Assembly (NCBI GenBank): GCA_019637295.1
Contig: JAHBVX010000001.1
Location: 905,501 to 969,500, forward strand
Origin: Polyangiaceae bacterium
Lineage (GTDB): Bacteria; Myxococcota_A; Polyangia; Polyangiales; Polyangiaceae
Reading direction: 5' to 3'
DNA: 64,000 bases
Of this stretch, positions 11,067 through 29,949 are shown in pieces; position 1 is the stretch's first letter; each line of letters starts with the position of its first letter. The translations under genes were made by a program, and so were the position numbers. The notes under the pieces were generated by a model. It did not search any database, was not told the DNA's origin, and was given only the letters and a program-made list of their open reading frames with translations.

Positions 11067-13418
11067 CTATGGGTTGAGGGCGTGGTACTTGTCTGGATCG
11101 TAGGACGACCCCTGCTTGTGGCACGTGGCGCAGCCTTCTTCCCCGGCGCTGCTGGTCATGGTCGCCGCGTGCGCCTTGCTCGACGGCGCCGCATGGCAGG
11201 ACGTACACGTTGCGGTTGCGGGGGGGATGTACTGGTTGGTGGCCGTCCAGTACGGGTTGTCACAGTAGTTGTTGGTGTCGGCCGTCGGATCCTCCGAGCA
11301 GGTGAGCAACTGCTGGAGAGAGGGCAGGGCGTTCTGCGTGATGGGCAGGGTCCACGTGCCCGCCTTGTGGCACGCCGCGCAGTCGTTGGGCGGGCGGGGG
11401 AAGCGGATCTCGCTGAAGTCGATCTGGTTGCCCGCGGGGTTGCTGGCGTTGGGAGCGGGGTTGCCGCCCATGATCAGCGGCACCGCGCGCTCCTCGCCCA
11501 TGTGGATGGCGTGGACCATCCACTTGAAGTGCGTGGGCAGCGCCAGCGACGGCTTGTCTTCGAAGCGTGACACCCGCGCAGCGTTCGGCAAGTTCGCGTT
11601 GTGGCAGAGCAAGCAGTACGTGGGGCTGCGCCGGATGCCGCCATGAAACGACAGCTTGTCGTGGCAGTTCTCGCAAGTCTGATTCGTGATGACCTCCCGG
11701 CGTGGAGCCACGCTGGTGTCGGTTACCGGGAAGTAGGCCACGGGGTTCATGGCGTCGTAGTTGACGTTCACTCCACCGACGTTCTTCTGGTTGCGTCCCT
11801 CGAGGCCCACGGCGTAGGAGCCCGTGGCCGACGCGGGCATGGGCGCCGGGAACGTGTACTTGAAGTTCGTGCCGCTGGCCGCCAGCGTTCCGCTCGCGCC
11901 GCTGCCCTGGATGGTGTGCTGCCAGCGCTCGGCGTAGTCGGTGGTCGGGCCGGCCACGGTGACGCGCAGCGTGTTCAGCGGAGTCGTGATGATGTTGCGC
12001 ACCACGCCCTTCTCCTTGACGGAGAAGATCAGCTCCGGAGTCTGCCCCGGGGCCGTGTTGGCGATGCTGACGATCTCGAGCTCGATCTGACCACCTGCCG
12101 GGTCGGTGTCGCGTGTGTAGTGCGACTTGGGGATGGGCGCGAGCCCGCCCACGTCGCCGTGACAGAAGCTACAGTTGCTGTCGGTGAGCTGGGCTCCTCC
12201 GGTGTGCAGCGTCATGCCCGTGGGGGCAGGGTCGACGAACGCGATGTTGTCGTGGCACGCGCCGCAGGCGTGCCGACTGGGCTTGGTCTTCCAGTTGTCG
12301 GCTTGCGCGCCCTTGTGGCACGTCTCGCAGTTCTGAATCGCCTGCGGGTAGAGCACGCCCGAGTAGTCGTGGACGCTCTGGTTGAAGCCGATGATCTGGT
12401 AGGGAGATCCCGCCACCACGCTCGGGAGGTTGTGGCCGCGATGGATCTTGTGGACCATGACCGCGAAGTCGAGGCGATTGCCCGTGTCAGGGTCCTTGTA
12501 GGGCGCGGAGTGACACAGGGTGCACAGCTCGACGTCCCGGCGACGGTCCCCGTGCAGGCTCAGTCGGCCGTGACAGTTGTTGCAGCCCTCGGTCGTGACC
12601 AGTTGCCGATGCAGCGCCGTGCCGCCGGCGGGCACGAAGCGGTGGACCGTATTGGCGACGTAGCGCTTTCCGCCCACGTCGCGTGAGGCGAACACGCCGA
12701 TGGCGTGGGTCTTGGACGTGTCCGGCGAGGTGATCGCTGCGCTGAACTCGTACTCGTACTCGCCCGGTGCTCCCGCCACGGGCGTGAACTTGCCGTTGTT
12801 CTCGGAGCCCGGGTGCGTCTCGGTGTCGTTCGTGATGGGGCTGGTCTGCTGCGTGGTCGTGTACGGGACCCAGTGGTCCGGGGCGCCACCAGAGTCGGTT
12901 TGCAGAGCGGCGATCACGAAGCTGGCGGACACGGCGCCTTCGGTCAGGACGCCCGCGCGGTCGAGAGGCTTGCCGTCGTTGTCAGTGAGCTTGAACTTCA
13001 CGGTGGCCTTGCCGCCGGCGATGGCCGCGCTGGTCACCTCGAACTTCAGGCCGATGCCCGCGGTCCACGCCCCGGTGCCACCATCGGGGCTCGGCCCGCA
13101 GAGCTTCTCGCTGGTCCCGTCGTCGCAGCTGATGGTCTTGCACCCGTCACCGTCGTCCGTCACCGTGCAGCCTTGGGGCGGAGCGCCGCCGTCGGGCGCG
13201 CAGACGGTGGTGCTCGTCCCGTCGTCGCAGCTGATCACGCTGCACCCGCTGCCTCCTTCGGTCACGGTGCACTTGGAGGGCGGTGGGGTCGTCCCCGCCT
13301 CACCGGGTGGGCCCGCCTTGCCCGCCTTGCCATCGTCCCCACTGCAGGCTCCTAGCAGAGCCACCCCCGCAACGACGCCGACCATGATGGCACGCATCCA
13401 CGAGCTCGATATGTTCAT
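11067..13418 (-). CDS. OmcA/MtrC-type decahaem cytochrome c, surface lipoprotein
   Basis: The product (783 aa) starts with a lipobox (LLGAC), then a linker with two Cys-rich repeats (CTVTxxGxGCxxISCDDGTS), then a long beta-rich part. Ten CXXCH sites follow from about residue 275 to 765 (GCNNCH, LCTLCH, NCETCH, ACGACH, NCSFCH, TCENCH, CLLCH, CAACH, CTSCH, CATCH), in two groups of five as in OmcA/MtrC proteins. These are outer-surface electron exporters in metal-reducing bacteria. The ATG at 13418 has a good ribosome binding site (ACACAGGAG) and a sigma-54-like promoter about 50 bp upstream. It is the last clearly related gene of the cluster. Confidence 0.92.
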   Translation of the reverse strand: MNISSSWMRAIMVGVVAGVALLGACSGDDGKAGKAGPPGEAGTTPPPSKCTVTEGGSGCSVISCDDGTSTTVCAPDGGAPPQGCTVTDDGDGCKTISCDDGTSEKLCGPSPDGGTGAWTAGIGLKFEVTSAAIAGGKATVKFKLTDNDGKPLDRAGVLTEGAVSASFVIAALQTDSGGAPDHWVPYTTTQQTSPITNDTETHPGSENNGKFTPVAGAPGEYEYEFSAAITSPDTSKTHAIGVFASRDVGGKRYVANTVHRFVPAGGTALHRQLVTTEGCNNCHGRLSLHGDRRRDVELCTLCHSAPYKDPDTGNRLDFAVMVHKIHRGHNLPSVVAGSPYQIIGFNQSVHDYSGVLYPQAIQNCETCHKGAQADNWKTKPSRHACGACHDNIAFVDPAPTGMTLHTGGAQLTDSNCSFCHGDVGGLAPIPKSHYTRDTDPAGGQIELEIVSIANTAPGQTPELIFSVKEKGVVRNIITTPLNTLRVTVAGPTTDYAERWQHTIQGSGASGTLAASGTNFKYTFPAPMPASATGSYAVGLEGRNQKNVGGVNVNYDAMNPVAYFPVTDTSVAPRREVITNQTCENCHDKLSFHGGIRRSPTYCLLCHNANLPNAARVSRFEDKPSLALPTHFKWMVHAIHMGEERAVPLIMGGNPAPNASNPAGNQIDFSEIRFPRPPNDCAACHKAGTWTLPITQNALPSLQQLLTCSEDPTADTNNYCDNPYWTATNQYIPPATATCTSCHAAPSSKAHAATMTSSAGEEGCATCHKQGSSYDPDKYHALNP

Positions 13419-13468
13419 CGCCGACTCCTGTGTGTCCCGCGCATTGAAATTCACCGCGTTGCACACGA

Positions 13469-13484
13469 AGCAAGCGCTGGGCCA
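13469..13484 (-). promoter_or_regulatory. sigma-54 (-24/-12) promoter candidate before the decahaem gene
   Basis: On the minus strand the sequence TGGCCCAGCGCTTGCT has the GG-N10-GC spacing and the TTGCW box of sigma-54 promoters. The predicted start of transcription is near 13458, leaving a 40-nt leader with a good ribosome binding site before the ATG at 13418. The motif GCAAACGTTC at 13500-13509, just upstream, is similar to one at 30065-30075. Confidence 0.5.
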
Positions 13485-13516
13485 GGCCGGCCACTCGTCG
13501 CAAACGTTCCGCAACG

Positions 13517-13747: not shown

Positions 13748-13783
13748 GCGCGAACCCAGTGCGCGGCGCAAGATGTGCGGACT

Positions 13784-15037
13784 TCAGCCGCCGGCAGCTT
13801 CCGTTGAGTCATCTTGCAAGGTTGGTACCGGCTGCTCGAGCCGCAGCTCACCCGTCTGAATCGCGATGGTCACCTTGGCCATGATGGTGAACAGGAACGC
13901 ACCGAGCGCGACGATGCCCAGGCTGACGATGATCTCGCCAGCGTTGGGGGTGTACTCCACGATCTCGCCGAGGGGGTTGGGAATGAAGCCGGGAAAGATC
14001 AACCCCATGCCCTTCTCGATCCAGATCCCCACGATGGTCAGCCCACAGCCAGCGAACAGGATCTTCTGGTTATTGCGCAGCTTGGGCAGCAAGAAGATGG
14101 CCGTGGCCGTGACGTTGAACGCGATCGCCGTCCAAATGAAGGACGTGAGCATCGAGTGGCCGTGCAACCCGAAGTACAAGTAGTACGCCGACGCCGAGTG
14201 GAGCGCCCCGGTGTAGAACTCGTGGAACACCTCGCAGCCGAGCAGGAACAGGTTGATCGGCATGGTGATGCGCAGCACGTACTTGAAGTACTCGAAGACG
14301 CTGTCCTTGACGTCGAGCTTGGTATAGCGGCGGATGGCAGTGAACAGCAGGATCAACAGCGCAGGTGCGGACGCTCCGGCGCTGATCAGGAAGCGTGGCG
14401 CCAAGATGGGTGTATTCCAGAAATGCCTGCTGCCGAGACCGGCGAGCAGGAACGCGGTCACCGTGTGGATCGTGACCGCCCAGATCATCGACACGAACAC
14501 GAACGGTAGGTAGGCGATCGGCCGCGGCTTCTCGCCCAGATAGCGGCGGTACAGCAGGTAGCCCGGGATGTGCAGGTTCAGGAACAAGTACCCGTTGAAC
14601 ACGACCACGTCCCAGGCCAGCAGCGAACTCGGAAGGTTGATCTTGCCGATGCCCGGCATCAGGTGCCACAGCTTGAGAGGCTGGCCGATGTCCGTGATGA
14701 TGAAGAGCAGGCACATGAGCACCGCCACCACCGCCAGGAGCTCTCCCAAAAGGACGATCTCCTTCACGTCCTCGCGGTGGTACGCGTACGCCGGTACGAC
14801 CAAGACCGCCGCGCCCGCCGCGACTCCGACGAAGTACACGAAGTTTGCGATCCCGATGCCCCAGCTGACGTGGTCGGTCATGTTGGTGACGATCAGCCCG
14901 TCGGACAGGTGGTGCGCGTAGCTCACGCCGCCCATGGCCACGAACACCAACAAGGTGCCTAGCCACAGGTAGTACTGCCGACTGCCGCGAGCGGCACAGG
15001 CGATCATGCGCAGGACGTAGACGGCAAATCGAACCAT
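13784..15037 (-). CDS. NrfD/PsrC-type quinone-binding membrane subunit (module B)
   Basis: A 417-residue integral membrane protein with about ten hydrophobic helices. It has NrfD-family features such as WGIGIANFVYFVGVAAGAAV, FIITDIGQPLKLWHL and LLAWDVVVFNGYLFLNL. The family exchanges electrons between the quinone pool and a periplasmic Fe-S subunit. It begins at ATG 15037, 5 bp after the Fe-S gene's stop codon. It is about 60% similar by eye to the module A copy and keeps the same C-terminal block (IWIEKGMGL, EIVEYTPNAGEI). Confidence 0.9.
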   Translation of the reverse strand: MVRFAVYVLRMIACAARGSRQYYLWLGTLLVFVAMGGVSYAHHLSDGLIVTNMTDHVSWGIGIANFVYFVGVAAGAAVLVVPAYAYHREDVKEIVLLGELLAVVAVLMCLLFIITDIGQPLKLWHLMPGIGKINLPSSLLAWDVVVFNGYLFLNLHIPGYLLYRRYLGEKPRPIAYLPFVFVSMIWAVTIHTVTAFLLAGLGSRHFWNTPILAPRFLISAGASAPALLILLFTAIRRYTKLDVKDSVFEYFKYVLRITMPINLFLLGCEVFHEFYTGALHSASAYYLYFGLHGHSMLTSFIWTAIAFNVTATAIFLLPKLRNNQKILFAGCGLTIVGIWIEKGMGLIFPGFIPNPLGEIVEYTPNAGEIIVSLGIVALGAFLFTIMAKVTIAIQTGELRLEQPVPTLQDDSTEAAGG

Positions 15038-15042
15038 GATGC

Positions 15043-16002
15043 TCACGCGTAGAAGTAGAAGAACCTCGGGTCGGTCCCCAAGTCCTCTTTCAAGATCCAC
15101 ACCCGCTTGCTAGCGATGATCTGGCGGACCTCGCTGCTGGGATCGGCGAGGTTGCCGAACTTGCGCGCCCCGGTCGGGCACGCCTCGAAGCACGCCGGAT
15201 AGCGACCGCGCCGCACGCGGTGCAGGCAGAAGGTGCACTTCTCGATCACACCCACCGGGCGGATGCGGTTGGAGAGGTAGCCCTGGTCCGGGTTGATGCG
15301 GTCGGGCTCGATGGAGGGTACGGTCCAGTTGAAGCGACGAGCGTGGTACGGACACGCTGCCTGGCAGTAGCGGCAGCCGATGCACCAGTCGTAGTCGACC
15401 ACCACGATACCGTCGGGCTCCTGCCAGGTCGCCTTCGTGGGACACGCCTTCACGCAAGGTGGATTGCGACACTGGTGACACTGCACGGGCAGGTAGTACT
15501 TGCCGGGCTCGGGCACCTGCTCGCGATCGTAGTTGACGGTGCCGTGCTCGAGGTGCTGCGAGCCGTTGTCGGCCTCGACCACCCGGATGTAGCGGATCTC
15601 GGGATCGTTCGGCAGGTTGTTCTCGCGCGCGCACGCCTCCACGCAGCGACGATTGCCGTTGCAGTGGTTCAGATTGAGCGCATACCCCCAGTGCACGCCG
15701 TCCAGCGGCTGCGGGTCGCTGACTTTGACACGCACCCCGGACCAGGCGTGGGTGCGTTGCTCGATGCGCTGGAACAGCTCCTTCTTGTCCTCGTCGCTCA
15801 GCTCCTTGTAGTGCTTCTGCAGTAAGTCCTTGACGAACGGGTGGTCGCAACCCGACGCGACGGTGCCAGTGACGGCCGCCGCCAGCGCGGACTTCAAGAA
15901 GCTCCGCCGCGAGCCGTCCTTGCTCAGACGGAGCTCGACCAGCTTCTCGACCCTCGCTCCAGCGCAGCTTGCTTCGTCCTTCTTCATGCTCTGCTCCGTC
16001 AT
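15043..16002 (-). CDS. four-cluster periplasmic ferredoxin-type subunit (module B)
   Basis: The 319-residue protein has a twin-arginine-like N-terminal signal (SRRSFLKSALAAAV) ending in a Cys (VASGC), then four Cys clusters: CNGNRRCVEAC, CHQCRNPPCVKAC, CIGCRYCQAAC and a last one split as CTFCLHRVRRGRYPACFEAC. This is the HybA/NrfC/DmsB type, which carries four [4Fe-4S] clusters and links a membrane quinone subunit to a redox partner. The ATG at 16002 overlaps the stop of the tetrahaem gene (ATGA), so the two are coupled. Confidence 0.92.
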   Translation of the reverse strand: MTEQSMKKDEASCAGARVEKLVELRLSKDGSRRSFLKSALAAAVTGTVASGCDHPFVKDLLQKHYKELSDEDKKELFQRIEQRTHAWSGVRVKVSDPQPLDGVHWGYALNLNHCNGNRRCVEACARENNLPNDPEIRYIRVVEADNGSQHLEHGTVNYDREQVPEPGKYYLPVQCHQCRNPPCVKACPTKATWQEPDGIVVVDYDWCIGCRYCQAACPYHARRFNWTVPSIEPDRINPDQGYLSNRIRPVGVIEKCTFCLHRVRRGRYPACFEACPTGARKFGNLADPSSEVRQIIASKRVWILKEDLGTDPRFFYFYA

Positions 16003-16526
16003 CGCGACTGCACCGGCGCAGGCGGCTTCTCCGGGGTCATCGACCGGAAGCGGGGGTTGTGGGGGTCGTGGCAGCCGGTGCACGAGCGCCGGTGCTTCTT
16101 GCCGTTCCACTCCCCGATCGTCAGCCCATGGATGCCGCGCTGGAAGTCTCGCTGCTTGTCGCCGTGACACGAGGTGCACAAGCGCCAGGCCTCGTCGAAG
16201 CTGATCAACTGACCGCTGGCCATCCGGAGCTTGTCGATGTCCTCGAGCGCGTGGCACTGGTAGCACCAGAACGCATCGTCCCCGTGCTTCAGATCGTCGT
16301 ACCGGGTCCGGTGGTAGTCCGCCAGCCGGCGTCGCGTCGGCTGCGCCTCGCGCTCGTCGTGACAACTCGTGCACGGATAGGTCGGCAGCAAGTGGCTGCG
16401 CGGCTCCACCAGGATCTCCTCGTGCGTGGGAGCAAAGGGTCGCTCAGCTGCCTGGTCGGGCGCGTGGGTCGCCTCGCAGGCCAGCGCTGCGACGAACGCG
16501 ACGAGCACGAGGCGCCCGGCGCTCAC
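15999..16526 (-). CDS. tetrahaem cytochrome c lipoprotein (module B)
   Basis: The 175-residue product begins at GTG 16526, which overlaps the stop of NrfD of module A (GTGA) and has a strong ribosome binding site (AGGAGGG). A lipobox (VAALAC) is followed by four CXXCH motifs: CTSCHD, CYQCHA, CTSCHG and CTGCHD. It is the c-type partner of the Fe-S/NrfD pair encoded next. Its gene order and sequence mirror the module A copy at 18665-19192. Confidence 0.9.
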   Translation of the reverse strand: MSAGRLVLVAFVAALACEATHAPDQAAERPFAPTHEEILVEPRSHLLPTYPCTSCHDEREAQPTRRRLADYHRTRYDDLKHGDDAFWCYQCHALEDIDKLRMASGQLISFDEAWRLCTSCHGDKQRDFQRGIHGLTIGEWNGKKHRRSCTGCHDPHNPRFRSMTPEKPPAPVQSR

Positions 16527-17740
16527 GCGTCGCCCTCCTGAAGCCGTAGCCGTCCCGTCTGCACGGCGATCGTGACCTTTGCAGCTGCCGTGAACAGCAG
16601 AGCTCCAGCCGCGAGGATGCCGATCGTCAATACGATCTCGCTGGCGTTCGGCACGTACTCCACTACCTCGCCCAGGGGAGATGGGGTGAACCCTGGCAAC
16701 ACCAGCCCCATTCCCTTCTCGACCCAGATGCTGAACACCAAGAGGGCACAGGACGCGTACAGCAGGCGGGGCTGTTGGCGCCACCGCGGAACGAGCAGGA
16801 TCACGAGCGCCACGACGTCGAACACGATGGCAGTCCAGATGAACTTGGGCAGCAACGTGTGCTCCCCCAACCCGAAGAACAGATAGCGTGCCGACTCCGT
16901 CACGGCCGTCCCCGAGTGGAGCTCCGTGAAGACCTCGCAGCCCAGCAGGAACAAATTCACCGGCAACATCACGCGCAGGACGTGAGCCAGATAGTCGAAC
17001 ACCCTGTCTGCGATCCTCATGCCTCCGTAGCGGTTGATCGCGGCAAAGCAGAGCAGGATGATGGCCGGACCCGAGACGGCGGCGCTCACCAAGAACCGCG
17101 GCGCGAGCAAGCCGGTGTTCCAGAAGTCACGGCTCTTGAGGGCCGACAGCAAGAAGGCCGTGACGGTATGGATGATGACCGCCCACAGCATGGACAACAT
17201 CACGGGCGGCAGCACGAACGCGAGGTTGGGCGCCTGCCCCAGGTAGCGCTTGTACAGCAAGTAGGCCGGAATGTAGAGGCTCAGAACCAGCTGCACACTG
17301 AACACCATCACGTCCCACGCCAGGTGGGAGCTCGGTAGATTGATGACGCCCAGCCCGGGGGATAGATGCAGCAGCCGATCCGGGCGACCGAGATCGCTGA
17401 TGATGAAGGACAGGCACATCACCACGGAGATCACGGCGATGATCTCCGCGAGCACGACGACCGCCTTGAACTCCTCGATGCGATAGATGTACGCGGGCAC
17501 GATCAGCAGCGCCACCGATGCCGCCACGCCGACGAAGTAGACGAAGTTGGCGATCCCGATGCCCCAGCTGACCTGATTGGACATGTTGGTGATGCCCAGT
17601 CCGTCGGCGATGTGGTGGTACCAGCTGATGCCGCCGAGGAAGGTGAGCACGAATAGCCCTCCCATCCAGAGGTAGTAGTTGCGTCCACCGCGGAGCACGC
17701 AGCCAGCACAACTCTTCAGATACTGGAGGTAGCGAATCAC
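16523..17740 (-). CDS. NrfD/PsrC-type quinone-binding membrane subunit (module A)
   Basis: A 405-residue membrane protein with about ten helices and the same landmarks as its paralogue: WGIGIANFVYFVGVAASVAL, FIISDLGRPDRLLHL, HLAWDVMVFSVQLVLSLYIP and IWVEKGMGLVLPGF. It should bind quinone and deliver or receive electrons through the Fe-S protein encoded 7 bp upstream. Its stop overlaps the GTG of the module B tetrahaem gene, so the six genes of the two modules form one tightly packed run. Confidence 0.9.
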   Translation of the reverse strand: MIRYLQYLKSCAGCVLRGGRNYYLWMGGLFVLTFLGGISWYHHIADGLGITNMSNQVSWGIGIANFVYFVGVAASVALLIVPAYIYRIEEFKAVVVLAEIIAVISVVMCLSFIISDLGRPDRLLHLSPGLGVINLPSSHLAWDVMVFSVQLVLSLYIPAYLLYKRYLGQAPNLAFVLPPVMLSMLWAVIIHTVTAFLLSALKSRDFWNTGLLAPRFLVSAAVSGPAIILLCFAAINRYGGMRIADRVFDYLAHVLRVMLPVNLFLLGCEVFTELHSGTAVTESARYLFFGLGEHTLLPKFIWTAIVFDVVALVILLVPRWRQQPRLLYASCALLVFSIWVEKGMGLVLPGFTPSPLGEVVEYVPNASEIVLTIGILAAGALLFTAAAKVTIAVQTGRLRLQEGDA

Positions 17741-17747
17741 GAGAGCC

Positions 17748-18668
17748 TCATCCGAAGAAGTAGAAGAAGCGGGGCACGGTCCCGAGTTCCTCTTTCAAGA
17801 CGTACGTGCGCTTGCGCTCGAGCATTCGGCGCACTTCGCTGTTCTCGTCGTTGATGTTCCCGAACTTGCGCGCACCCGTGGGACAGGCTTCCAGGCACGC
17901 CGGGTAGCGTCCACGTCGCGTGCGATGCAGACAGTACGTGCACTTCTCCACCACCCCCGCGGGTCTGATGCGGTTGGACAGGTAGGCCTGATCCGGGTTG
18001 ATGCGGGACGGCTCGATGCTGGGCTCGCGAAAGTTGAAGCGTCGAGCGTAGTAAGGACACGCTGCCTGGCAGTAGCGACAGCCGATGCACCAGTCGTAGT
18101 CGACCACCACGATGCCGTCCGGCTCGACCCACGTCGCCTTGACCGGGCAGGCGTCTACGCAAGGGGGCTTCTTGCACTGCTGGCACTGGACCGGGAGGTA
18201 GTTCTTCCCGCTGCGAGGAACCAGCTCGGGGTCGTAGGCATGCTCCGCGTTCGCCAACTCGAGCGTCCCCGCGTCCACCTCGACCACGCGCAGGTACCGA
18301 ATGTCGTCTGGCAGGTTGTTCTCGCGCGCGCACGCCTCGACGCAGCGCCGGTTGCCGTTGCACAGGCTGAGGTCGAGCGCGTGCACGAACTCCACGCCGG
18401 CCATGGGTTGCGGGTCACCCACCGTCACGCGCACCCCCGAGCGCGCGAGGACCTCGGCCTCGATGCGTGCGAAGAGCTTGCGCTTGTCCTCGTCCGTGAG
18501 CTTCAAGTAGTGCTTGCTCAGGAGTTTCTCCACGCCCGCGCCGTCGCACGCGGTCGACGCGGAGGCGACGGCTGCACCCGCGAGCGCCGTCTTCAGAAAC
18601 CCGCGGCGCGTGTCATGGCGGCCCAATCGAAGCCGGACCAGCTCCCCCAGGCGAGCCTCGGGCGTCAT
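17748..18668 (-). CDS. four-cluster periplasmic ferredoxin-type subunit (module A)
   Basis: The 306-residue protein carries an N-terminal twin-Arg-type signal (TRRGFLKTALAGAAV) and four [4Fe-4S] Cys clusters: CNGNRRCVEAC, CQQCKKPPCVDAC, CIGCRYCQAAC and CTYCLHRTRRGRYPACLEAC. Family: HybA/NrfC-like electron-transfer subunit. It starts with ATG at 18668, overlapping the tetrahaem gene (ATGA), and is the closest relative in the window of the protein at 15043-16002. Confidence 0.92.
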   Translation of the reverse strand: MTPEARLGELVRLRLGRHDTRRGFLKTALAGAAVASASTACDGAGVEKLLSKHYLKLTDEDKRKLFARIEAEVLARSGVRVTVGDPQPMAGVEFVHALDLSLCNGNRRCVEACARENNLPDDIRYLRVVEVDAGTLELANAEHAYDPELVPRSGKNYLPVQCQQCKKPPCVDACPVKATWVEPDGIVVVDYDWCIGCRYCQAACPYYARRFNFREPSIEPSRINPDQAYLSNRIRPAGVVEKCTYCLHRTRRGRYPACLEACPTGARKFGNINDENSEVRRMLERKRTYVLKEELGTVPRFFYFFG

Positions 18669-19192
18669 GTGCGCTCTCCCAAGACGTCCGGGGGCCTCTC
18701 CGGGACCATCGGTTCAAAGGCAGGTTTGTGGGGGTCGTGACAGAACGTGCACGACTGCCGCAGCTTGGGTCCGTTCCATGAGCCACGATTCAGTCCATGC
18801 AGGCCCGCCTTCCAGTCGATCAGCTTGTCGCCGTGACAAGAGCCACACAGGTCCTGCGGGTCCGAGAACGCCACCGGCGTTCCGAGCGTCGTGCGCAGCC
18901 TGTCGATGTTCTCCAGCGAGTGGCAGCGATAGCACCAGCCGTCCTTGGTGCCGTGATCGAAGCCGTTCTTGGGAGTGTGATACTCCACCAGCTTGCGCGG
19001 GCGCGGATCAGGCTCGCGGTCGGCGTGACAACTCGAGCACGGGAACGTAGGGATCAGCGCCGGGTGGTCCTCGACCATCACGACGGAGGACGCGGGTGGG
19101 GGATCGGCGAAGTCGCGCTTCATCGGCTCGATCCCTTGGTTGCACCCACTCGCGCAGAGCAGCGCCAGCAAGCACGACGAGCGCGTCATCAC
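18665..19192 (-). CDS. tetrahaem cytochrome c lipoprotein (module A)
   Basis: The product (175 aa from GTG 19192, or one codon shorter from ATG 19189) has a lipobox (LLCASGC) and four haem sites: CSSCHA, CYRCHS, CGSCHG and CTFCHD. Spacing and flanks (SLENIDRLR, WNGPKLRQSCTFCHDPHKP) match the module B copy (ALEDIDKLR, WNGKKHRRSCTGCHDPHNP), showing a tandem duplication. It overlaps both its neighbours, so translation is coupled. Confidence 0.9.
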   Translation of the reverse strand: MMTRSSCLLALLCASGCNQGIEPMKRDFADPPPASSVVMVEDHPALIPTFPCSSCHADREPDPRPRKLVEYHTPKNGFDHGTKDGWCYRCHSLENIDRLRTTLGTPVAFSDPQDLCGSCHGDKLIDWKAGLHGLNRGSWNGPKLRQSCTFCHDPHKPAFEPMVPERPPDVLGERT

Positions 19193-19869: not shown

Positions 19870-19889
19870 GGGCTCGCCGCCTCGACGAG

Positions 19890-19905: not shown

Positions 19906-20017
19906 GTGCGCCGCACCGCCCTGCCCGAGCGCGCGCGCAGGATGTGCGAAGCGTGAGTCTCCGAATGCAGCGGGTGCGCCACTCGGCGGTGTTGGCTCTA
20001 GCAGGCGTGGATGCACT

Positions 20018-21685: not shown

Positions 21686-22718
21686 GACAATACCTGCACA
21701 TCGCCGCGCCCTTCGAGCGCGAACTGGACCATCCCGCGGGGTGAGGATTCCCTCCGCCGCCGCCTGCCTTGTGACACCGAATGCAGTTGGTCGCCGGGCC
21801 ACGGTCGTGGCAGGACGCGCAGCTGACGATGTTGTGCCGCGCCGCGCGGCCGTGGAAGTTGCTGGAGGTCGGATCGGGTCCCACCCAGCCGATGGGATGA
21901 GGATTGACGCTCCCCACCGCGTTCCCGCTCACGCCGCGCTTGGTGTGACACGCGTCACACGAAGAGGCAGTGTGACAGGTCGCGCAGGTCGCGGGCTGCG
22001 AGCGGGCCTCGATGGGGTGGCGCGTGATGAAGTCGCCACGATGGACGAAACCCGCGCCGACCTTCTCGGGATGGCGCACCTCGACGGGCAGCGTCTGGCG
22101 CTGGTCGTGACAGTCGGCGCACTGGGTCTGGGTGTGGCACTGGTTACACTGCGGTTCGGTGCGCTTGGCATGGGCGCCGTGGCGTTGCACCCAGCCCGTG
22201 TCGTGCCGCGAGAAGGACTGGGGCACCAAGCGCCGTAGATGCTTGGCCTCGTGACAAGGCGTGCAGCGCCCTTGGTCGAACTCGGGTTGATGACAATCGA
22301 GGCACAGCGACATCGGTGGGTACGCCGTGGCCTCCGACTTCTCGGAGACCACGCCGGCGTGACACTTCACGCATTGCCCCGCAATTTGGGGAAGATCCAG
22401 GTGCTTGACGTGCTCGAAGCGGATCGCGCGCCCGAGGGGATAGTCCGGGTCCAGCGTCGTCGCGGCTTGGCGAGCGACCTTCTCGGCGTTGTCGTGACAG
22501 CCTGCACACTGCCGCGTCTCCGGCAGGATGGGCCGCGCCGAGTCTCGCGCTCCAGCGTGGCAGCTCGCGCAGGTCAGACATGAGGGCTGTCCGCTCCCGC
22601 CGCACTCGATTCCGGTCAAGTGCACGACGTGCGGGAAGCCAACCGCCGCCTGCCGCGTCGACTCGCACGCCGAGACGACCAAGCCGGCGGCCAGCAGCGC
22701 GAAGGCTAAGCGCTTCAC
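21675..22718 (-). CDS. 12-haem cytochrome c lipoprotein
   Basis: A 347-residue protein with a lipobox (LVVSAC) and twelve CXXCH motifs spread over the whole chain (CASCHA, CAGCHD, CVKCHA, CLDCHQ, CTPCHE, CNQCHT, CADCHD, CATCHT, CDACHT, CASCHD, CIRCHK, CRYCHE). Extra His residues between them are likely distal ligands. It starts at ATG 22718, overlapping the barrel gene by 4 bp. It is probably one side of the porin conduit. Confidence 0.9.
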   Translation of the reverse strand: MKRLAFALLAAGLVVSACESTRQAAVGFPHVVHLTGIECGGSGQPSCLTCASCHAGARDSARPILPETRQCAGCHDNAEKVARQAATTLDPDYPLGRAIRFEHVKHLDLPQIAGQCVKCHAGVVSEKSEATAYPPMSLCLDCHQPEFDQGRCTPCHEAKHLRRLVPQSFSRHDTGWVQRHGAHAKRTEPQCNQCHTQTQCADCHDQRQTLPVEVRHPEKVGAGFVHRGDFITRHPIEARSQPATCATCHTASSCDACHTKRGVSGNAVGSVNPHPIGWVGPDPTSSNFHGRAARHNIVSCASCHDRGPATNCIRCHKAGGGGGNPHPAGWSSSRSKGAAMCRYCHEP

Positions 22719-24148
22719 GAGCCACCTCCACCGGGCAACCCGTCGAACACGTAGCTCGCCCGCACCACGGTCTGGGCATCCCAGGCCGCATACGGGGAGC
22801 GCGTCAGAGACGTGCCGAGCAAGAGCTTCAGCGCCGGTGTCACGGCGTAGTCGGCGCTGAGCGCTTCGACGGTCGACGTCCCGATCCCTCGGATCGCCGC
22901 GTCGTAGACGTAGGTGTACTGTTCGGCCGTCACCGCGGCGGGCTCGAGCAGTTGAAAGCGGAGCGAGGCGCGCCCTGACCAGTAGCCGTTCTCCCGTTCC
23001 GCGACTCGCCCGAGGGCGAACTGCAGCGCGACCCGCTTCGCGTCGTCCGGAACGATGCGAGTCGACAGCGACAAGCGCGTCCCCAAGTCCTCTCCGCCGA
23101 ACACTTGCACGAAGCCGCCGCCGCCCATCCTCCAGCGGGATGTCGCGCGAAAACCCAGCTCTCCCCCGACCTCGTCGAAACGGTCGGTGGAGAACACGCT
23201 CAGCACCGACTGCCGGGACAACAAGAGCGCCGGCTCGGCTCGGCGGTAGCCGAAGTTCAAGTCGACGCGCTCCACGGGTCGGGTGTCGAGCAACGCTCGG
23301 GCCTCCACCAGGCCCCCGCTATCGGTATCGAGAAACCCGTCGACCAGTAGGCTGACGTCGTCGATGGCCGACAGCGCAGCGTCCAGGCCGACGTCGCGGC
23401 GTCCGAGCTCCCCGCCCTCGGACTGATGGTGCACCGAGGCTCCAAGTCCACCGTACCGAGGGTGCTCGTAGAACAGTCGCGAGCCAAACATCAGGTTCTG
23501 CGTGCGACTCGGCTCGGGCAGCGCATCGGGGCGGCGCAAGAGGGAGTCCGCCGCCGAGCCCAGGTGGTAGTAGCCGGGCTGCTCCGCCCAGCGCGGCAAC
23601 ACCGTCATGCCACCGTAGCCGTCGATGCCGAGACCGAAGTCCGTCCGCGCCCCGGCGGAGATGCCATCGAGCTGGCTGAAGCGCGAAACACCTGCGACCA
23701 CGATCTGTCGCCCGATGCGGACGTGTGCGGGCCCCACCCGGTGTCGGACGTTCGCGATCGTGACGTCGCCGTCGAGCAACCGCTCCGCGTCGGCGTCCGG
23801 GCGCCGATCGACGAACAGGACGGCGGCGCTGCCCCAAGCGGACAACTCGACGTCGACGCTGTCCCGGCTCCACGCCGTATCCAGGTCGAGCGCGCGGACC
23901 GTCACATACTGGTGCAGCGGCACCCAGGTCTGGGTGCTCACGCGAGCCCCCCCCGCTCCCGGCAGCAGGCTCCGCTGAAACAGTCGGAGGTAGCTGTGCG
24001 CCTCGGCGTGCAGCGAGTACCGGTCCGAGTCGTCGGGCTCGGCGGCGACGGCCCGCGTCGGAAGGCAGACCGCCACCGCCGCCAGCAAGCTGACGGCACC
24101 CCACCCGAGGGCAGAAGTGCGGCGGAGGGCGGCAACGGAGCGGGTCAT
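22715..24148 (-). CDS. outer-membrane beta-barrel, likely porin of a porin-cytochrome conduit
   Basis: The 477-residue protein starts at ATG 24148, overlapping the 34-haem gene (ATGA), and has a signal peptide ending near VAVCLPTRAVAA. The rest is a train of amphipathic strands (VDVELSAWGSAAVLFVDRR, VERVDLNFGYRR, KRVALQFALG) ending TVVRASYVFDGLPGGG. It lacks the CXXC of MtrB and is not clearly in that family. Position between 34-, 12- and 15-haem cytochrome genes strongly suggests the barrel that holds cytochromes across the outer membrane. Confidence 0.75.
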   Translation of the reverse strand: MTRSVAALRRTSALGWGAVSLLAAVAVCLPTRAVAAEPDDSDRYSLHAEAHSYLRLFQRSLLPGAGGARVSTQTWVPLHQYVTVRALDLDTAWSRDSVDVELSAWGSAAVLFVDRRPDADAERLLDGDVTIANVRHRVGPAHVRIGRQIVVAGVSRFSQLDGISAGARTDFGLGIDGYGGMTVLPRWAEQPGYYHLGSAADSLLRRPDALPEPSRTQNLMFGSRLFYEHPRYGGLGASVHHQSEGGELGRRDVGLDAALSAIDDVSLLVDGFLDTDSGGLVEARALLDTRPVERVDLNFGYRRAEPALLLSRQSVLSVFSTDRFDEVGGELGFRATSRWRMGGGGFVQVFGGEDLGTRLSLSTRIVPDDAKRVALQFALGRVAERENGYWSGRASLRFQLLEPAAVTAEQYTYVYDAAIRGIGTSTVEALSADYAVTPALKLLLGTSLTRSPYAAWDAQTVVRASYVFDGLPGGGGS

Positions 24149-26391
24149 TTGAAGGGGTGGCAGGCCTGGCAGCTCTTGGCTGCGGGTTGGTGTGGGGTCA
24201 TGTCGGTGTGACAGCGCATGCATTGCGCGCGCGAGGGCAGACTCGCCGAGTGAGTCGAGTGACAGTCGCGACACGTCTCGTGGCCCTTGACTCGATGGCC
24301 TGCCTTGCCCGTCGCAGTTTTGTGACAGCTGTTGCAGCTCGGCGCCGTGAATCCGTGGGGCTTGTGACACTGGTTGCAATCCGCATGCACTTTCCCGGCC
24401 TTCGCGTCGCGGCTCTGCGACGCATGGCAACTCGAGCAGCGCTGCCACCAGGCCTTGCCCGCTCCCGGCGGCTGCTGATGCGGAGCGTGGCACTGCCTGC
24501 ACTCGTGCCGCCCTCCCTTGGCGGAGGCGGCTTGCTGGCTGTGGCAGCTCGCACACGTCTTGGTCTCGCCCACCGCATGGGGCTGATGGCACTCGTTACA
24601 GGCTCCGGCGTGGGCGCTGCCCGCGGGCCACGTCTTGGCGACGGCGGCCTTGTCCTGATGGCAGCTCGAGCAGCGCGCGGGAGCTTGACTGGCAGGGCGA
24701 TGCGGTTCGTGACACGAGCCGCAGTTCGCGTGGGCGACGCCGCCCGCCGGCGGGCGCAGGCGGATCGACTCGTGACACCCCAGGCACGCTTGGCGGCCAA
24801 CCGCGGGCGAGCCGTGGGGAGCGTGGCACTTGTTGCAGGCTCCGTCATGCGCGCCGGGTGCGGCTGCGATCGACTGGTGGCAAGCGGCGCACGGCGCCGA
24901 GGCGTTCCTCACCTCGAAGCGATGAGGCTTGTGGCAGGACTCGCAGCGACGGTGTTCCGCGGGGCGCGCGCTGGTCACCAGCTTGCCCTGCGGCTTGTGA
25001 CAGCTGGCACACAGCCCGGCTCGGGGTCGCGGACTGCCGTGGGATTGGTGGCAGCCCCCGCAACCGAGCTTGCGATGCGCCTCGGGACCGTCGCTGACGA
25101 CCTGGCGCGTCTGTCCGGTGTGGCACCCCGCGCACGAAGCCGTGGGGCGGACGTTGGCCGCATGTGGGTCGTGGCAGCTCGCGCAGTTCTTGTGCTTGCT
25201 CGGCGCGGTGGCGAGGTGCCCGCGCCGCTCCTTGTGGCAGGAGGTGCACGCCTCCCCACCCGGAAGGGGCGCGTGGGGCGCGTGGCAACTGGTGCAGTCT
25301 TGGTGTGCGGCGGGTGACTTCTCCAGCAAGAGCGACGCTTTCTCGTCGTGACACTGCACGCAGCCGCTGCGCGCCGCCGTCCAGGTGTGCGGCACGTGGC
25401 AACTCGCGCAGCTCTCGTGGTGGAGCGCAGTGGACCGCGGCCCGCGTGCGCTCAAGCGCCCCTCCTCGTGGCAGTCCTTGCACGGCACGACGAACTGATC
25501 GATCGGCGCGTGCGCCCCATGGCACCCCACACAGTTGTCGTGCCCCTCCGGCACAGGCTTGCCGCGGGTGCCAATCTGCATCTGGTGACACTCTCGGCAC
25601 ACGCGCCCGCCGGCGATGCTGTCCGGGTCGGACACGTGAGCCGCCGTCACGTTCTCGGCGCCGGCCGCCGGCGCGACGCGGGGCTTGTCCCGCGGCATGG
25701 CCCGGTGGGGCTGGTGACACTGTTTGCAGTCGACCCCTCCGTGCAACATCTCGCGGGACACCAAGAGCCCCTCGCGTGGCAGGTCGGTCCCAGCGCTCTG
25801 GGCGAGCTCCTTGGGGTCGGCGTGACAGCGAATGCACTCCATCAACGTCAGCCGCCTCTCACCGGGTTTGGGCAAGGCGAAGTTGTGGCAGCCCGTGCAG
25901 CTGTCCGCGTCCTTCGCGGTCTTGTGTAGGCGATCGTCGTCGTGGCAGTCGGTGCAGGACCGCGCGGCGCTCTCGGGGCCGTGCGTGCTCTGCTTGTGGC
26001 ACGATAGGCAGTCGACCTTCTCGAGCCCCGCGTGCCCACGGTGTCCCGCCGTCTCGTGCACGAGGCGTCCCTGCTCGGACTTGGAGTCGTGACAACTCGA
26101 ACAGGTTCGCACGTCCACCGCGGCGTGGGGCGGAGCGGGGCCTCCGCGCAAACTCGACCAGGCGAGCTTCGCCGCGGCCCCAAAGCTCACCGCGTGACAC
26201 GCCTGACACGACACCGCGTCGTGTCCGCCGGCGGAGCGCCACGGTTGTGGATGGCGCTCGGCATCGTGGCACGACGTGCAGTACGTACTGTCGGTCCGGG
26301 CCCGTCGCGACGAGACCGTCGCGCCCGCCGCTGCGAGGGCCACGACTGCCAGGACGACCGTGATGGTCCACGCCCATGCGCGCCCGGTCAT
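24145..26391 (-). CDS. 34-haem cytochrome c
   Basis: I count 34 CXXCH motifs in 748 residues, one per about 22 residues, from CTSCHD near residue 37 to CQACHP at the C-terminus. Many come in pairs of the 'CxxCHxPH ... CxxCH' type (doubled CXXCH domain), with a His two or three residues after the motif. The N-terminus is a single hydrophobic helix (ITVVLAVVALAAAGATV), followed by a first pair that recalls NapC/NirT anchors, so the chain is either membrane-anchored or exported. It overlaps its neighbours on both sides by 4 bp. It could be a long periplasmic wire or a filament subunit. Confidence 0.9.
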   Translation of the reverse strand: MTGRAWAWTITVVLAVVALAAAGATVSSRRARTDSTYCTSCHDAERHPQPWRSAGGHDAVSCQACHAVSFGAAAKLAWSSLRGGPAPPHAAVDVRTCSSCHDSKSEQGRLVHETAGHRGHAGLEKVDCLSCHKQSTHGPESAARSCTDCHDDDRLHKTAKDADSCTGCHNFALPKPGERRLTLMECIRCHADPKELAQSAGTDLPREGLLVSREMLHGGVDCKQCHQPHRAMPRDKPRVAPAAGAENVTAAHVSDPDSIAGGRVCRECHQMQIGTRGKPVPEGHDNCVGCHGAHAPIDQFVVPCKDCHEEGRLSARGPRSTALHHESCASCHVPHTWTAARSGCVQCHDEKASLLLEKSPAAHQDCTSCHAPHAPLPGGEACTSCHKERRGHLATAPSKHKNCASCHDPHAANVRPTASCAGCHTGQTRQVVSDGPEAHRKLGCGGCHQSHGSPRPRAGLCASCHKPQGKLVTSARPAEHRRCESCHKPHRFEVRNASAPCAACHQSIAAAPGAHDGACNKCHAPHGSPAVGRQACLGCHESIRLRPPAGGVAHANCGSCHEPHRPASQAPARCSSCHQDKAAVAKTWPAGSAHAGACNECHQPHAVGETKTCASCHSQQAASAKGGRHECRQCHAPHQQPPGAGKAWWQRCSSCHASQSRDAKAGKVHADCNQCHKPHGFTAPSCNSCHKTATGKAGHRVKGHETCRDCHSTHSASLPSRAQCMRCHTDMTPHQPAAKSCQACHPFK

Positions 26392-27692
26392 GCCTCACGC
26401 CGCCTCCGGCGCTCGAGCTGAACCGCCTTGGCCGCCAACAGCAGCAACAAGAGCAAGGAGAGCCCGAGCGCGAAGTAGTAACCCCGCCGCTCCACTCGGC
26501 GGTCCGTTCGGGCCTGATCCGCGAGCCGCATGGCCTGAAGCGAAGCCTCGTCTGCGGCCCTGGCCACCACGCGGATCTGGTTCTTGTCCACGGTGTGCAC
26601 GACGGTACGGAGCTTGAGCTCCTGAGTTCGAAGCTCGTCCAAGATCGGACCCGCCCCGCGGATCAACAGCCCCGCTCGGCGCGCGTCCTGAAGCGACTCC
26701 CGAGCCGCTTCGGAGCGCTCCCGCACACCCGACAGCAGCGTGGCGATCTCGTCCGCAGCGGTGTGTACCTTTTCGTCCAGGCTATGGCACTTGCCGCACG
26801 CCGAGTCCGCTGCCATTCCGACCAGCCAGCGGGTAGCCAACGCTTCGTGCTTGTCGTGACACGGCGTGCACTCGGACAAGCCCAGCTGCTCGAAGGGCTT
26901 GGCGTGAGGGCTCTGTCGCACGTACTTGAGCTGTTCCTCGTGGCACGCCCCGCACACGTGAGTCGTGGAGCCCGCTGCTGCGGCTCCGGCGTGAGCGCCG
27001 TGGCATCCGGTACAGGTTGGCGCCGCTGCTTGGTCAGTGGCGAACACCTCGGCGTGCAGGCTGCGCTGCCAGCGCAGCACCTGGTCGGTCGTGGTCTCGT
27101 AGGGCTTCATGCGCTCCCGGTCGGAGTGGCACTTGCCGCACAACTCGACCACGTTCTTCGGATGCACGGGCGCGGTCAGCGCGTCGACTCGCGACACGTC
27201 GTGAGCCCCATGGCAGTCGGCACAGTTCGGAGCGTTGCGGTCACCCGCAGCCGACAGCTTGGAGTGCAAGCTCAGGTGGTACAGCGTCGCCTGGTCGACC
27301 TGCAGGCGCGGATTGAACTCGCGAATGAAGCGCGCGTCGCTGTGGCAACCGCCGCAGATGGCGCTGACCGCGTCGTGCGGCGGGCGCGGAATGAATCCTT
27401 CGGCGGCGTGGGCGCGAACGGTAGGGTCCTCCGGATCTCCCTTGTGACAGCCCACGCACCCAATGCGCGGATCCTTGTGTACGCTCTTCTCGTACTGGAC
27501 CGCTGGCAACCGGAGCTTCGCTTCGGGCAGCGATGCATGGCACGTCGCACAGGTGTTGGGGTGTGCTTCGGGCCGCGCAGCTCGTCGTTCGCGCAGTTCG
27601 TCCTTGGCGCTTCGCTTCGGTTCCGCCCACGCCGAACTCGACGCGACAGCGAGCGCCAACCAGAGTCCGAGCAAGTGTCTAAAGCACGGCAT
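26388..27692 (-). CDS. 9-haem cytochrome c with C-terminal membrane anchor
   Basis: A 434-residue protein with a signal peptide (LALAVASSSAWA) and nine CXXCH sites in the first 300 residues (CATCHA, CVGCHK, CGGCHS, CADCHG, CGKCHS, CTGCHG, CGACHE, CTPCHD, CGKCHS). A coiled-coil-like helical stretch follows, then a transmembrane helix (YYFALGLSLLLLLLLAAKAV) and a basic tail. It overlaps the cytochrome b gene by 14 bp and is probably the electron acceptor of the Rieske/cytochrome b pair. Confidence 0.88.
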   Translation of the reverse strand: MPCFRHLLGLWLALAVASSSAWAEPKRSAKDELRERRAARPEAHPNTCATCHASLPEAKLRLPAVQYEKSVHKDPRIGCVGCHKGDPEDPTVRAHAAEGFIPRPPHDAVSAICGGCHSDARFIREFNPRLQVDQATLYHLSLHSKLSAAGDRNAPNCADCHGAHDVSRVDALTAPVHPKNVVELCGKCHSDRERMKPYETTTDQVLRWQRSLHAEVFATDQAAAPTCTGCHGAHAGAAAAGSTTHVCGACHEEQLKYVRQSPHAKPFEQLGLSECTPCHDKHEALATRWLVGMAADSACGKCHSLDEKVHTAADEIATLLSGVRERSEAARESLQDARRAGLLIRGAGPILDELRTQELKLRTVVHTVDKNQIRVVARAADEASLQAMRLADQARTDRRVERRGYYFALGLSLLLLLLLAAKAVQLERRRRREA

Positions 27693-28707: not shown

Positions 28708-29151
28708 TCATCCCTCGCTCACGACCACGACGCCGCTCTCGATCGTGACCTTGAGGGCGGCGAGTGGGCGGGGGGGCGGCCCAGAGACGTTCGCGCCCTC
28801 GACCGAGTACACGCCCTCGTGGCAACGGCACTCGATCCGGTTGTTCTCCGCCGAGTAGCCGACCACGCACTGGAGGTGCGTGCACAGCGCGATGTACGCG
28901 CGAAAGCTCCCGTCCGGGAGACGGATCACGAGCGCCGCTTGCTCGCCCAGGACCACCGAGCGCGCGGTCCCGGCGGCGAACTCGTCGACGGGGCAAACCT
29001 CTGCGCGCTCCTTGGTCCGGCGGGAAACGGGAGACAGGAATCGCACCACCGGATAACCCGCGGCAGTACCGAGCGCCGCTGTGGTGCCAACGATCGCGAT
29101 GCTCAGGAAGTCCCGGCGGGCGCCAGGCTCGTTGTCGTTCGAGTCACTCAG
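28708..29151 (-). CDS. Rieske iron-sulphur protein, probable CTG start
   Basis: The protein carries the two Rieske boxes CTHLQC and CRCHEG, which bind a [2Fe-2S] cluster. In-frame ATG/GTG/TTG starts appear only late (GTG at 29049) and would cut off a clear N-terminal twin-Arg-type signal anchor (RRDFLSIAIVGTTAALG). Upstream the frame continues to a CTG at 29151-29149, which lies 6 nt after a good GGGAGG site and just past the stop of the preceding gene (29157-29155). From CTG the protein has 147 residues, a normal length. This start is inference. Confidence 0.85.
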   Translation of the reverse strand: MSDSNDNEPGARRDFLSIAIVGTTAALGTAAGYPVVRFLSPVSRRTKERAEVCPVDEFAAGTARSVVLGEQAALVIRLPDGSFRAYIALCTHLQCVVGYSAENNRIECRCHEGVYSVEGANVSGPPPRPLAALKVTIESGVVVVSEG

Positions 29152-29154
29152 AAC

Positions 29155-29949
29155 TCACCTCCCGGGGTTCAGACGTGCTCCCTCCACGATCACCGCATAG
29201 CGGTAGCCTGCCCCAATGTCGCGATCGACGGCGACCACGCCCTCGGCGGTCACGGTATCTCCGACCACCGCCTCGACCTCGGTCGTGAGCGTCAGGTCAT
29301 TGGTGCCGGCGGCTTCGTCACCGCTGCCGTCGCGCAGGTGGACGAAGGTCTTGCCCAGGATGCCCGACGTGCTCTTGACCACGACCCCTCGCACGCGGAC
29401 GGTCTTACCGACCCAGGCCGACTTCTTTGCGTATAGCTCGTCGATGCGAAGCGCGTTGTCTCCGCTGGCCTTGTCGACCTGCCCCACCCTCACGGCTTCG
29501 GGCTTGGACGGGAGGGCCAGGCCCTGGTGTGGGTCTGCCAGGGGTGCGGGCGCCGCAGCCACATCGCCCTCGAGCTCACCGAAGTAGATGGAGTCGAACG
29601 TGCGATCCAGGGTCTCGCTGCGGAAGCTCTCCATCCGAGTGCTGGAGACGACGCGCGCGCGCGCGCCGACGGCGAGCGGCGTGGACGCGACCGCTGTCCA
29701 TGTTCCGGGCGTGGCCGGCGCGCCGATCCTCAAGTAGACATAGCCGGAGACCTCGAGCCGCTCGAGCACCTCCCCCTCGATCACCGCTTGGTTGTCCGGC
29801 GCGCTGACCACCCCGGTTGCAGCGGGGGGACTGCCCTGCTCCGCCGTCGTGGCCGGGGTCGTCTCGGCCTTGCCCTCTTGTCGTTGCAGCAGCGCGACGC
29901 CAAACCCCGCGACTACCGCGACTGCCAGGACCACGTTGATCGTCCGCAT
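29155..29949 (-). CDS. NrfJ-like and OB-fold exported protein, first gene of the bc operon
   Basis: A 264-residue protein with an N-terminal hydrophobic segment (INVVLAVAVVAGFGVALL). A first domain at about residues 55-115 (GEVLERLEVSGYVYLRIG, then SETLDRTFDSIYFG) resembles NrfJ-type proteins found with cytochrome c systems. A second domain with an OB-fold pattern follows (WVGKTVRVRGVVVKST, DTVTAEGVVAVD). It heads the operon that encodes the Rieske protein and cytochrome b. Role unknown; an assembly or haem-handling function is possible. ATG at 29949 lacks a clear ribosome binding site. Confidence 0.7.
   Translation of the reverse strand: MRTINVVLAVAVVAGFGVALLQRQEGKAETTPATTAEQGSPPAATGVVSAPDNQAVIEGEVLERLEVSGYVYLRIGAPATPGTWTAVASTPLAVGARARVVSSTRMESFRSETLDRTFDSIYFGELEGDVAAAPAPLADPHQGLALPSKPEAVRVGQVDKASGDNALRIDELYAKKSAWVGKTVRVRGVVVKSTSGILGKTFVHLRDGSGDEAAGTNDLTLTTEVEAVVGDTVTAEGVVAVDRDIGAGYRYAVIVEGARLNPGR

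Follow-up and report, generated by a model that had tools for sequence, protein, structure and literature searches.

Among myxobacteria, Anaeromyxobacter is the main genus known for extracellular electron transfer. A study of sludge genomes names this genus and also reports multihaem extracytoplasmic proteins in a few other Myxococcota (PMC11495043). Here we analyze a block of 16 modelled genes located on the minus strand at positions 11067-29949 of a 64-kb stretch (hereafter the window) of contig JAHBVX010000001.1 from a Polyangiaceae bacterium. It encodes seven multihaem cytochromes c (MHC), a Rieske/cytochrome b pair, two NrfD modules and a predicted outer-membrane β-barrel. We consider it probable that the block specifies a single trans-envelope electron conduit, built of three modules and leading from menaquinol to the cell surface. 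In its working it is of an already known kind, a porin-cytochrome conduit with quinol modules; its barrel matches no family tested.

Of known whole clusters, extHIJKLMNOPQS of Geobacter sulfurreducens (GSU2940-2930) comes nearest. By the published descriptions, it likewise encodes an outer-membrane barrel together with a Rieske protein, a cytochrome b and cytochromes of 12 and of 10 haems (PMC5877670, PMC2825233). Both also include a small cytochrome lipoprotein, to which the descriptions of ext assign either four haems (PMC5877670) or two (PMC2825233). Unlike ext, the block contains a 34-haem chain (MHC34), a 15-haem lipoprotein with CX4CH motifs (MHC15), two NrfD modules, a decahaem cytochrome of the OmcA/MtrC type (MHC10) and a cytochrome b with a PPWY motif. 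This cytochrome b scores below the cut-off of the ExtP equivalog, no ExtKL-type selenoprotein was noticed, and no ExtH-type rhodanese appeared among the Pfam and NCBIfam matches (E ≤ 0.01) of the 16 genes. The NrfD modules recall Cbc4 (CbcSTU), described as a menaquinol:ferricytochrome c oxidoreductase, and DsrOP, in that a c-type cytochrome, a DsrO-like iron-sulfur (FeS) protein and an NrfD protein follow one another in order (PMC11434368). Unlike CbcSTU/DsrOP, the block has tandem copies, tetrahaem lipoproteins and a conduit beside them. These comparisons with Geobacter Ext and Cbc, like those with Omb and OmcN below, rest on descriptions rather than on sequence alignment.

Further likenesses concern single parts. 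The Geobacter outer-membrane (Omb) conduits extABCD and extEFG are described with barrels predicted at 18-21 strands, a 12-haem cytochrome and cytochrome lipoproteins (PMC6148476); the barrel modelled here comes near with 22 strands, against 26 given for MtrB (PMC12133095), and the block adds 15-haem and 34-haem partners. MHC10 is a member of the Shewanella OmcA/MtrC subfamily by curated cut-off, but, unlike the Shewanella Mtr system, no protein of the block passes the cut-off of the MtrA-like DmsE model and none matches MtrB. Chains of 34 haems are reported for Gmet_0571, Gmet_0581 (OmcN) and Gmet_2470 of Geobacter metallireducens; the account places the first two at the outer surface, Gmet_0581 with an Ig-like domain (PMC10989804), whereas MHC34 has a putative NrfH-like anchor. 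The Nap locus of Caldithrix abyssi is described as encoding a Rieske/cytochrome b pair without a nearby monohaem cytochrome, for which a multihaem partner was proposed (PMC5317091). That pair is linked to nitrate reduction, unlike the block, and Calditrichota loci recur in the 80-locus set analyzed below. No description of this block was found in the open-access literature, nor any open-access paper joining Polyangiales with extracellular electron transfer and cytochromes. An earlier note on this DNA knew of no described system with this combination. That view can be upheld for the combination itself and also for the barrel with its two cytochrome lipoproteins, and not for the single parts, relatives of the ext cluster, CbcSTU and OmcA/MtrC.

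The genes are transcribed in the order OB, Rieske, cytochrome b, MHC9, MHC34, barrel, MHC12, MHC15 and LP19, followed by MHC4a-FeSa-NrfDa, MHC4b-FeSb-NrfDb and finally MHC10. Counting every motif as haem-binding, the seven cytochromes carry 88 haem sites (9+34+12+15+4+4+10), 85 of the CXXCH and three of the CX4CH type. A DNA pattern coding for CXXCH matched 88 times in the window, against a mean of 2.99 and a maximum of 8 in 100 shuffles. Of these matches, 85 fall on the minus strand from 11118 to 27551 and account for all 85 CXXCH of the seven cytochrome genes; the other three occur elsewhere in the window or on the plus strand. With gene starts picked by eye, eight of the 15 junctions are overlaps of 4 bases and two more are overlaps of 11 and 14 bases; at three the genes lie 0-7 bases apart, and two gaps are larger (148 bases before LP19 and 365 before the decahaem gene). 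This overlap suggests co-expression, short of proof, where the earlier note had seen tight co-expression; promoter and terminator scans did no better than shuffles (1 against a mean of 1.1, and 10 against a mean of 8.6). Its figures of seven cytochromes and 88 motifs were exact, and the Rieske/cytochrome b pair, both NrfD modules and the barrel, as a predicted model, were all recovered; its count of 19 genes was too high.

The outer-membrane part of the block is a trio of barrel, MHC12 and MHC15. As in porin-cytochrome conduits, a barrel, here a predicted one, is encoded together with multihaem cytochromes of which at least one is a lipoprotein. The barrel has no Pfam or NCBIfam match, and its profile found none among the PDB sequences. 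An AlphaFold2 model from a five-sequence alignment displays 22 strands (predicted local distance difference test, pLDDT, 69.5; predicted template modelling score, pTM, 0.64), and fold searches with it returned generic outer-membrane barrels. No sequence match to MtrB was obtained, and its absence from the 50 fold matches listed per search shows nothing. MHC15 exceeds the cut-off of TIGR01904 (116.5 against 27 bits) and harbors CX4CH/CXXCH pairs of the Geobacter type. Searches of the PDB sequences with MHC12, MHC9 and MHC34 gave weak matches to multihaem proteins only.

Analysis of the window's family revealed how constant this trio is. The barrel profile matched 44 of 108 family genomes and 26 of 48 genera. 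From the 52 barrel places listed, 25 were inspected as loci, one per genome and reaching only 1.5 kb; four of them (the window, G286, G191 and G102) are rows of the search profile. An MHC12 relative with 11-13 haems adjoins the barrel on the same strand in all 25, and part of MHC15 can be seen in 21. Among 14 larger trio regions, chosen by hand, ten have an MHC34 relative with 23-27 haems near the trio, and one trio carrier, G417, is a single 16.04-Mb contig and probably a cultured strain. The congener G244 has a trio (L205) with a 27-haem chain. Judged by this recurrence, the conserved unit is the predicted barrel with its cytochrome lipoproteins and not the whole block, to which the window adds the bc and NrfD modules. 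The host genome itself encodes a second barrel/12-haem/15-haem trio (contig C20, L204 6473-10627), 46-51% identical to that of the island, with no 34-haem gene within the 20 kb read. The proposal that the island is the only conduit of its genome was rejected on account of this second trio.

Two kinds of neighbors were seen beside the conduits or islands of relatives. One, a protein resembling a lipoprotein, has 9 haems and a long run of collagen-like sequence (L156 8253-11285). The other comprises proteins that resemble ImcH in architecture, with N-terminal helices recognized by eye and 6-7 haems (L053 1934-3490, L054 14894-16441 and L154 13762-15405); a search of the window's genome with the L053 protein gave no match and, having no positive control, says nothing on absence.

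MHC34 would bridge this outer-membrane unit and the quinol modules. It looks anchored in the inner membrane, because it has no lipobox, its N-terminal helix is followed by basic residues, and its first part weakly resembles NrfH (28.7 bits, below cut-off, best over residues 11-78). Ten of the 11 aligned orthologues have 34 haem sites and L054 has 33; at the first of these sites, the window has CXXCH where the ten relatives have CX3CH. The kept 34-site architecture, together with the predicted membrane anchor, suggests a fixed trans-periplasmic wire. At E ≤ 1e-60, the MHC34 profile matched 14 of the 108 family genomes and 13 of the 48 genera, the congener G244 not being among the matches. All ten island relatives defined below carry MHC34 beside the Rieske/cytochrome b/MHC9 triad. 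Several of the matches are more distant copies, which sit beside a barrel and MHC12, mostly also MHC15, without Rieske or cytochrome b in the stretch read (L151, L153 and L155-L158), and a strict tie of MHC34 to the bc triad was rejected on this ground.

The triad itself has a far wider distribution. By E-value, the best NCBIfam match of the cytochrome b is ExtP (NF040969), at 163 bits and under the cut-off of 290; below cut-off, the same model also matches cytochromes b in eight of 14 control genomes. A cytochrome b profile scan of the contigs of GTDB genomes yielded 130 relatives, 80 of which were kept, all 80 loci being metagenome assemblies. In 67 of the 80, the genes for Rieske, cytochrome b and an MHC9-like multihaem protein adjoin in this order, and an MHC9 relative follows cytochrome b in 68. 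By our reading, the 13 loci without the full order comprise seven at contig edges, two read as one frame with cytochrome b, three with the MHC9 relative upstream and one (L077) with none adjoining. The 80 loci are labelled as Acidobacteria, Bacteroidetes/Ignavibacteria, Calditrichota, Gemmatimonadota, Marinimicrobia, Elusimicrobia, Myxococcales and others. A cytochrome b tree was drawn from 80 rows, including L036 as an addition and excluding two overlong frames; a branch with full support (100/100) separates the window and ten island relatives from all other rows. We call these 11 the island clade: the window, L036, L052, L053, L054, L055, L056, L057, L091, L098 and L114. Seven of the relatives (L036, L052, L053, L055, L091, L098 and L114) are tied to genomes of the window's family, and L054, L056 and L057 were placed by the tree only.

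Two observations on the wider set stand apart. In Marinimicrobia, L100 and L108 combine FeS/NrfD genes, a 14-haem MHC12-like protein and a bc triad, L100 also encoding a 17-haem protein; they are possibly a distant counterpart of the island. On a contig labelled as Actinomycetes (L120, Ww568), the cytochrome b groups with that of Myxococcales L127 (Ww259; 96/56) inside a four-row group (100/100), and the gene order is similar; the contig is probably mis-binned.

The cytochrome b of the island clade shows an unexpected trait. The cluster ligands of the Rieske protein are intact (CTHLQC ... CRCHEG). The Qo motif of the cytochrome b, however, is PPWY in all ten island-clade rows of the alignment, window included, and likewise in L036, against PEWY (66 rows) or PEWF (3) in the 69 readable rows among the 71 outside the clade, the other two being unreadable. 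Published surveys of Qo motif variants exist, so PPWY itself may be described; no open-access paper treating PPWY together with PEWY was found. The window's cytochrome b keeps H86, H187 and H202 but has Q at position 100, which we take to be a haem bH ligand by homology to bc1 (bovine H97). It therefore lacks one of the four histidines of a canonical bc complex, all of which are present in 71 of 71 rows outside the clade. Position 100 is also Q in L057 and is L in the near-copies L091 and L114, where Y replaces H202 as well, so that both ligands are gone. As L036, the sister of L057 (100/99), retains H100, the histidine was lost more than once or regained. If haem bH is missing, the second quinol electron would have no usual path to the Qi site, and the normal Q-cycle looks impaired. 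The complex may feed the wire as a plain quinol oxidase, or it may be decaying while the duplicated NrfD modules take over.

Both NrfD modules resemble DsrO and DsrP. Against the DsrO model NF045797 (cut-off 200 bits) both iron-sulfur proteins fall short, and against the DsrP model NF045798 (cut-off 350 bits) NrfDb scores over and NrfDa under; the bit scores are given in the table. Neither DsrM nor DsrK was found among the 19 proteins scanned between 10247 and 33507. Compared with the PDB sequences, NrfDb matched two NrfD subunits weakly. The tandem copies are 45% (MHC4a/b), 67% (FeSa/b) and 57% (NrfDa/b) identical, and a tree of the window's NrfD copies with the two copies of L091 and L114 left an open fork with a long-branch warning. 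Where the contig permits, an FeS-NrfD module lies on the opposite strand in the ten island relatives, L091 and L114 having two. MHC4 and LP19 usually accompany it, and OB, barrel, MHC12 and MHC15 are also present in several of these relatives. LP19 is kept in sister islands, with homologues 39-49% identical at nine other distinct places. OB, for which family searches gave no database family above cut-off, has homologues at seven other distinct places among the loci compared.

MHC10 was assigned to the OmcA/MtrC subfamily by TIGR03507 (412.9 against 209.3 bits, over residues 3-672 of 672), and it is the sole match to this model in the host genome. In the PDB sequence search it retrieved MtrF (1.9e-20) and OmcA (1.3e-18). 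Three larger trio regions (L212, L214 and L215) encode long relatives of MHC10, 40-48% identical over about 680-800 amino acids (aa).

Table. Genes of the block in order of transcription, with the divergent regulatory pair. Positions are those of the window.
Feature	Position	Strand	Basis and remarks
OB, exported, 264 aa	29155..29949	-	N-terminal hydrophobic stretch; OB-fold label is a guess by eye
Rieske [2Fe-2S] protein	28708..29151	-	PF00355 51.3 bits; N-terminus resembling a twin-arginine translocation (TAT) signal; CTG start inferred, family searches ran on 28708-29148
cytochrome b, 342 aa	27679..28707	-	PF00033 126.8 bits
MHC9, nonahaem	26388..27692	-	9 CXXCH; by eye, a signal peptide and a membrane helix at the C-terminus
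MHC34, 34-haem	24145..26391	-	34 CXXCH; single N-terminal membrane helix by eye
outer-membrane beta-barrel, predicted	22715..24148	-	AlphaFold2 model, 22 strands
MHC12, 12-haem lipoprotein	21675..22718	-	12 CXXCH; lipobox Cys 18
MHC15, 15-haem lipoprotein	20018..21685	-	12 CXXCH + 3 CX4CH; lipobox
LP19, haem-less lipoprotein	19189..19869	-	lipobox; earlier start at 20034 possible
MHC4a, tetrahaem lipoprotein	18665..19192	-	4 CXXCH; lipobox
FeSa, DsrO-like 4Fe-4S protein	17748..18668	-	twin-arginine motif; NF045797 178 bits
NrfDa, NrfD/DsrP-like membrane protein	16523..17740	-	PF03916 115 bits; NF045798 321 bits
MHC4b, tetrahaem lipoprotein, second copy	15999..16526	-	4 CXXCH; lipobox
FeSb, DsrO-like 4Fe-4S protein, second copy	15043..16002	-	twin-arginine motif; NF045797 193 bits
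NrfDb, NrfD/DsrP-like, second copy	13784..15046	-	NF045798 368 bits; GTG start inferred, searches ran on 13784-15040
MHC10, OmcA/MtrC-family decahaem lipoprotein	11067..13418	-	TIGR03507 412.9 bits; 10 CXXCH; lipobox
sensor histidine kinase, divergent, possible regulator (not shown)	30141..32132	+	
NtrC/AtoC-type response regulator, divergent, possible regulator (not shown)	32104..33507	+	

The host genome (G000) measures 7.65 Mb and is 98% complete. It encodes three oxidases of the COX1 family, one of them beside genes resembling alternative complex III. A search of this genome for ribulose-1,5-bisphosphate carboxylase/oxygenase (RuBisCO) gave no match, and the same search was positive in five of 14 control genomes. 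PF14537, searched genome-wide, matched at only three places and missed most of the island cytochromes, and is no basis for the total cytochrome content. An empty-site test with the radical-SAM neighbor found no match in G244 and distant matches in two of six genomes. Dedication of the divergent kinase/regulator pair to the island was unsupported, a 45% identical kinase lying in G244 on a 17-kb contig free of the island. Elsewhere in the window, an open reading frame of 659 aa (36089-38068, minus strand) ends in a Somatomedin_B domain (PF01033, 35.1 against 23.1 bits), a domain best known from animals.

The genes present, their haem motifs and lipoboxes, and the conservation of linkage and of the 34-site architecture are observed; the barrel and the membrane anchors are predicted. 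From these we infer an assembly, an order of transfer, an outward direction and a physiology. In the inner membrane, the Rieske/cytochrome b/9-haem complex and the two NrfD-FeS-tetrahaem modules would oxidize menaquinol, and the MHC4 lipoproteins and MHC9 would take up the electrons from these quinol modules. Inner-membrane-anchored MHC34 would then ferry them over the periplasm, replacing small diffusing cytochromes by a fixed wire. The barrel, MHC12 and MHC15 would form a porin-cytochrome complex across the outer membrane, and MHC10 could hand the electrons at the surface to an external acceptor such as minerals, humics or other cells. Since the host also has its three COX1-family oxidases, the conduit would serve as a second outlet when oxygen is scarce. 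The earlier note had spoken of a seemingly complete extracellular electron transfer system. The parts do span quinone, periplasm, outer membrane and surface, with five cytochrome lipoproteins, among them the OmcA/MtrC decahaem, and the barrel/12-haem linkage in 25 of 25 loci supports a conduit; the system is nevertheless not indivisible, the bc triad, the NrfD modules and the trio occurring apart.

Several points weigh against this proposal. Because the trio and the bc modules also occur apart in relatives, one chain is not required. Direction is not readable from sequence, and the function is a proposed one. The AlphaFold model of MHC34 has a pLDDT of 38.5, too low to give a length or path for the presumed wire, and no conduit barrel stands among the fold matches listed for the barrel, whose model rests on five sequences. 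The MHC10 type lies beside only three of the 14 larger trios, and tblastn found no MHC10 relative in the sister islands compared, many of whose contigs end early. The lost haem bH ligand may signal a decaying bc part. Finally, with its oxidases and the locus resembling alternative complex III, the host need not depend on the conduit.

The same machinery could also work in the opposite direction: Fe(II), reduced humics or partner cells outside would donate electrons, which would enter through MHC10 and the trio and reach the quinone pool or the oxygen-reducing chain. Quinone-linked cytochromes of such pathways are reported from Fe(III) reducers and Fe(II) oxidizers alike (PMC6295460), and the genome has three COX1-family oxidases. 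However, autotrophic electron uptake is made less likely by the lack of a RuBisCO match, since no autotrophic demand would then arise through this route (the search covered no other route of carbon fixation), and two quinol-type modules with a Rieske protein would fit quinol oxidation more simply. We regard inward flow as unlikely.

A system for reducing selenite, tellurite or other oxyanions, like Geobacter ext, is improbable, although ExtP is the best match of the cytochrome b and the ext cluster, in its published description, also combines a porin with Rieske and cytochrome b proteins and with cytochromes of 12 and of 10 haems; an extI mutant is reported to be weak in selenite and tellurite reduction (PMC5877670). 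The ExtP score lies far under its cut-off, and matches of this grade are common in the control genomes; the block has no rhodanese match, and its barrel matches no Pfam or NCBIfam family. By the published account, extHIJKL lacks an outer-membrane cytochrome (PMC6148476), whereas MHC10 is present here. That 88 haem sites lie in one block of a genome with oxidase genes would also suit an electron store, a capacitor buffering changes in oxygen with little net export. We consider this likewise improbable, as a barrel would be superfluous for a store, yet the barrel and its 12-haem lipoprotein are the most constant pair of all.

Within the conduit we propose, a more particular arrangement can be put forward, tentatively and with more doubt than belief. 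In it, a Rieske/cytochrome b pair working without a Q-cycle would be hard-wired through MHC9 to a single covalent chain of 34 haems, anchored in the inner membrane, which would cross the periplasm as a wire and dock on porin-cytochrome conduits of a new family with 22 strands. The change from PEWY to PPWY, the erosion of the haem bH ligands, apparently more than once, and a diffusion-free route in oxidase-bearing Polyangiaceae would all belong to this arrangement.

MHC34 allows a direct test of whether cells bridge the periplasm with a single protein acting as a fixed wire, and the erosion at the haem bH site provides natural variants for asking whether a Rieske/cytochrome b pair works without a Q-cycle. 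The conduit core is widespread in the window's family, which we take to be Polyangiaceae, extending over 26 of the 48 genera. If the proposed function is true, electron exchange with iron, with humics or between species may be far commoner in this family than thought.

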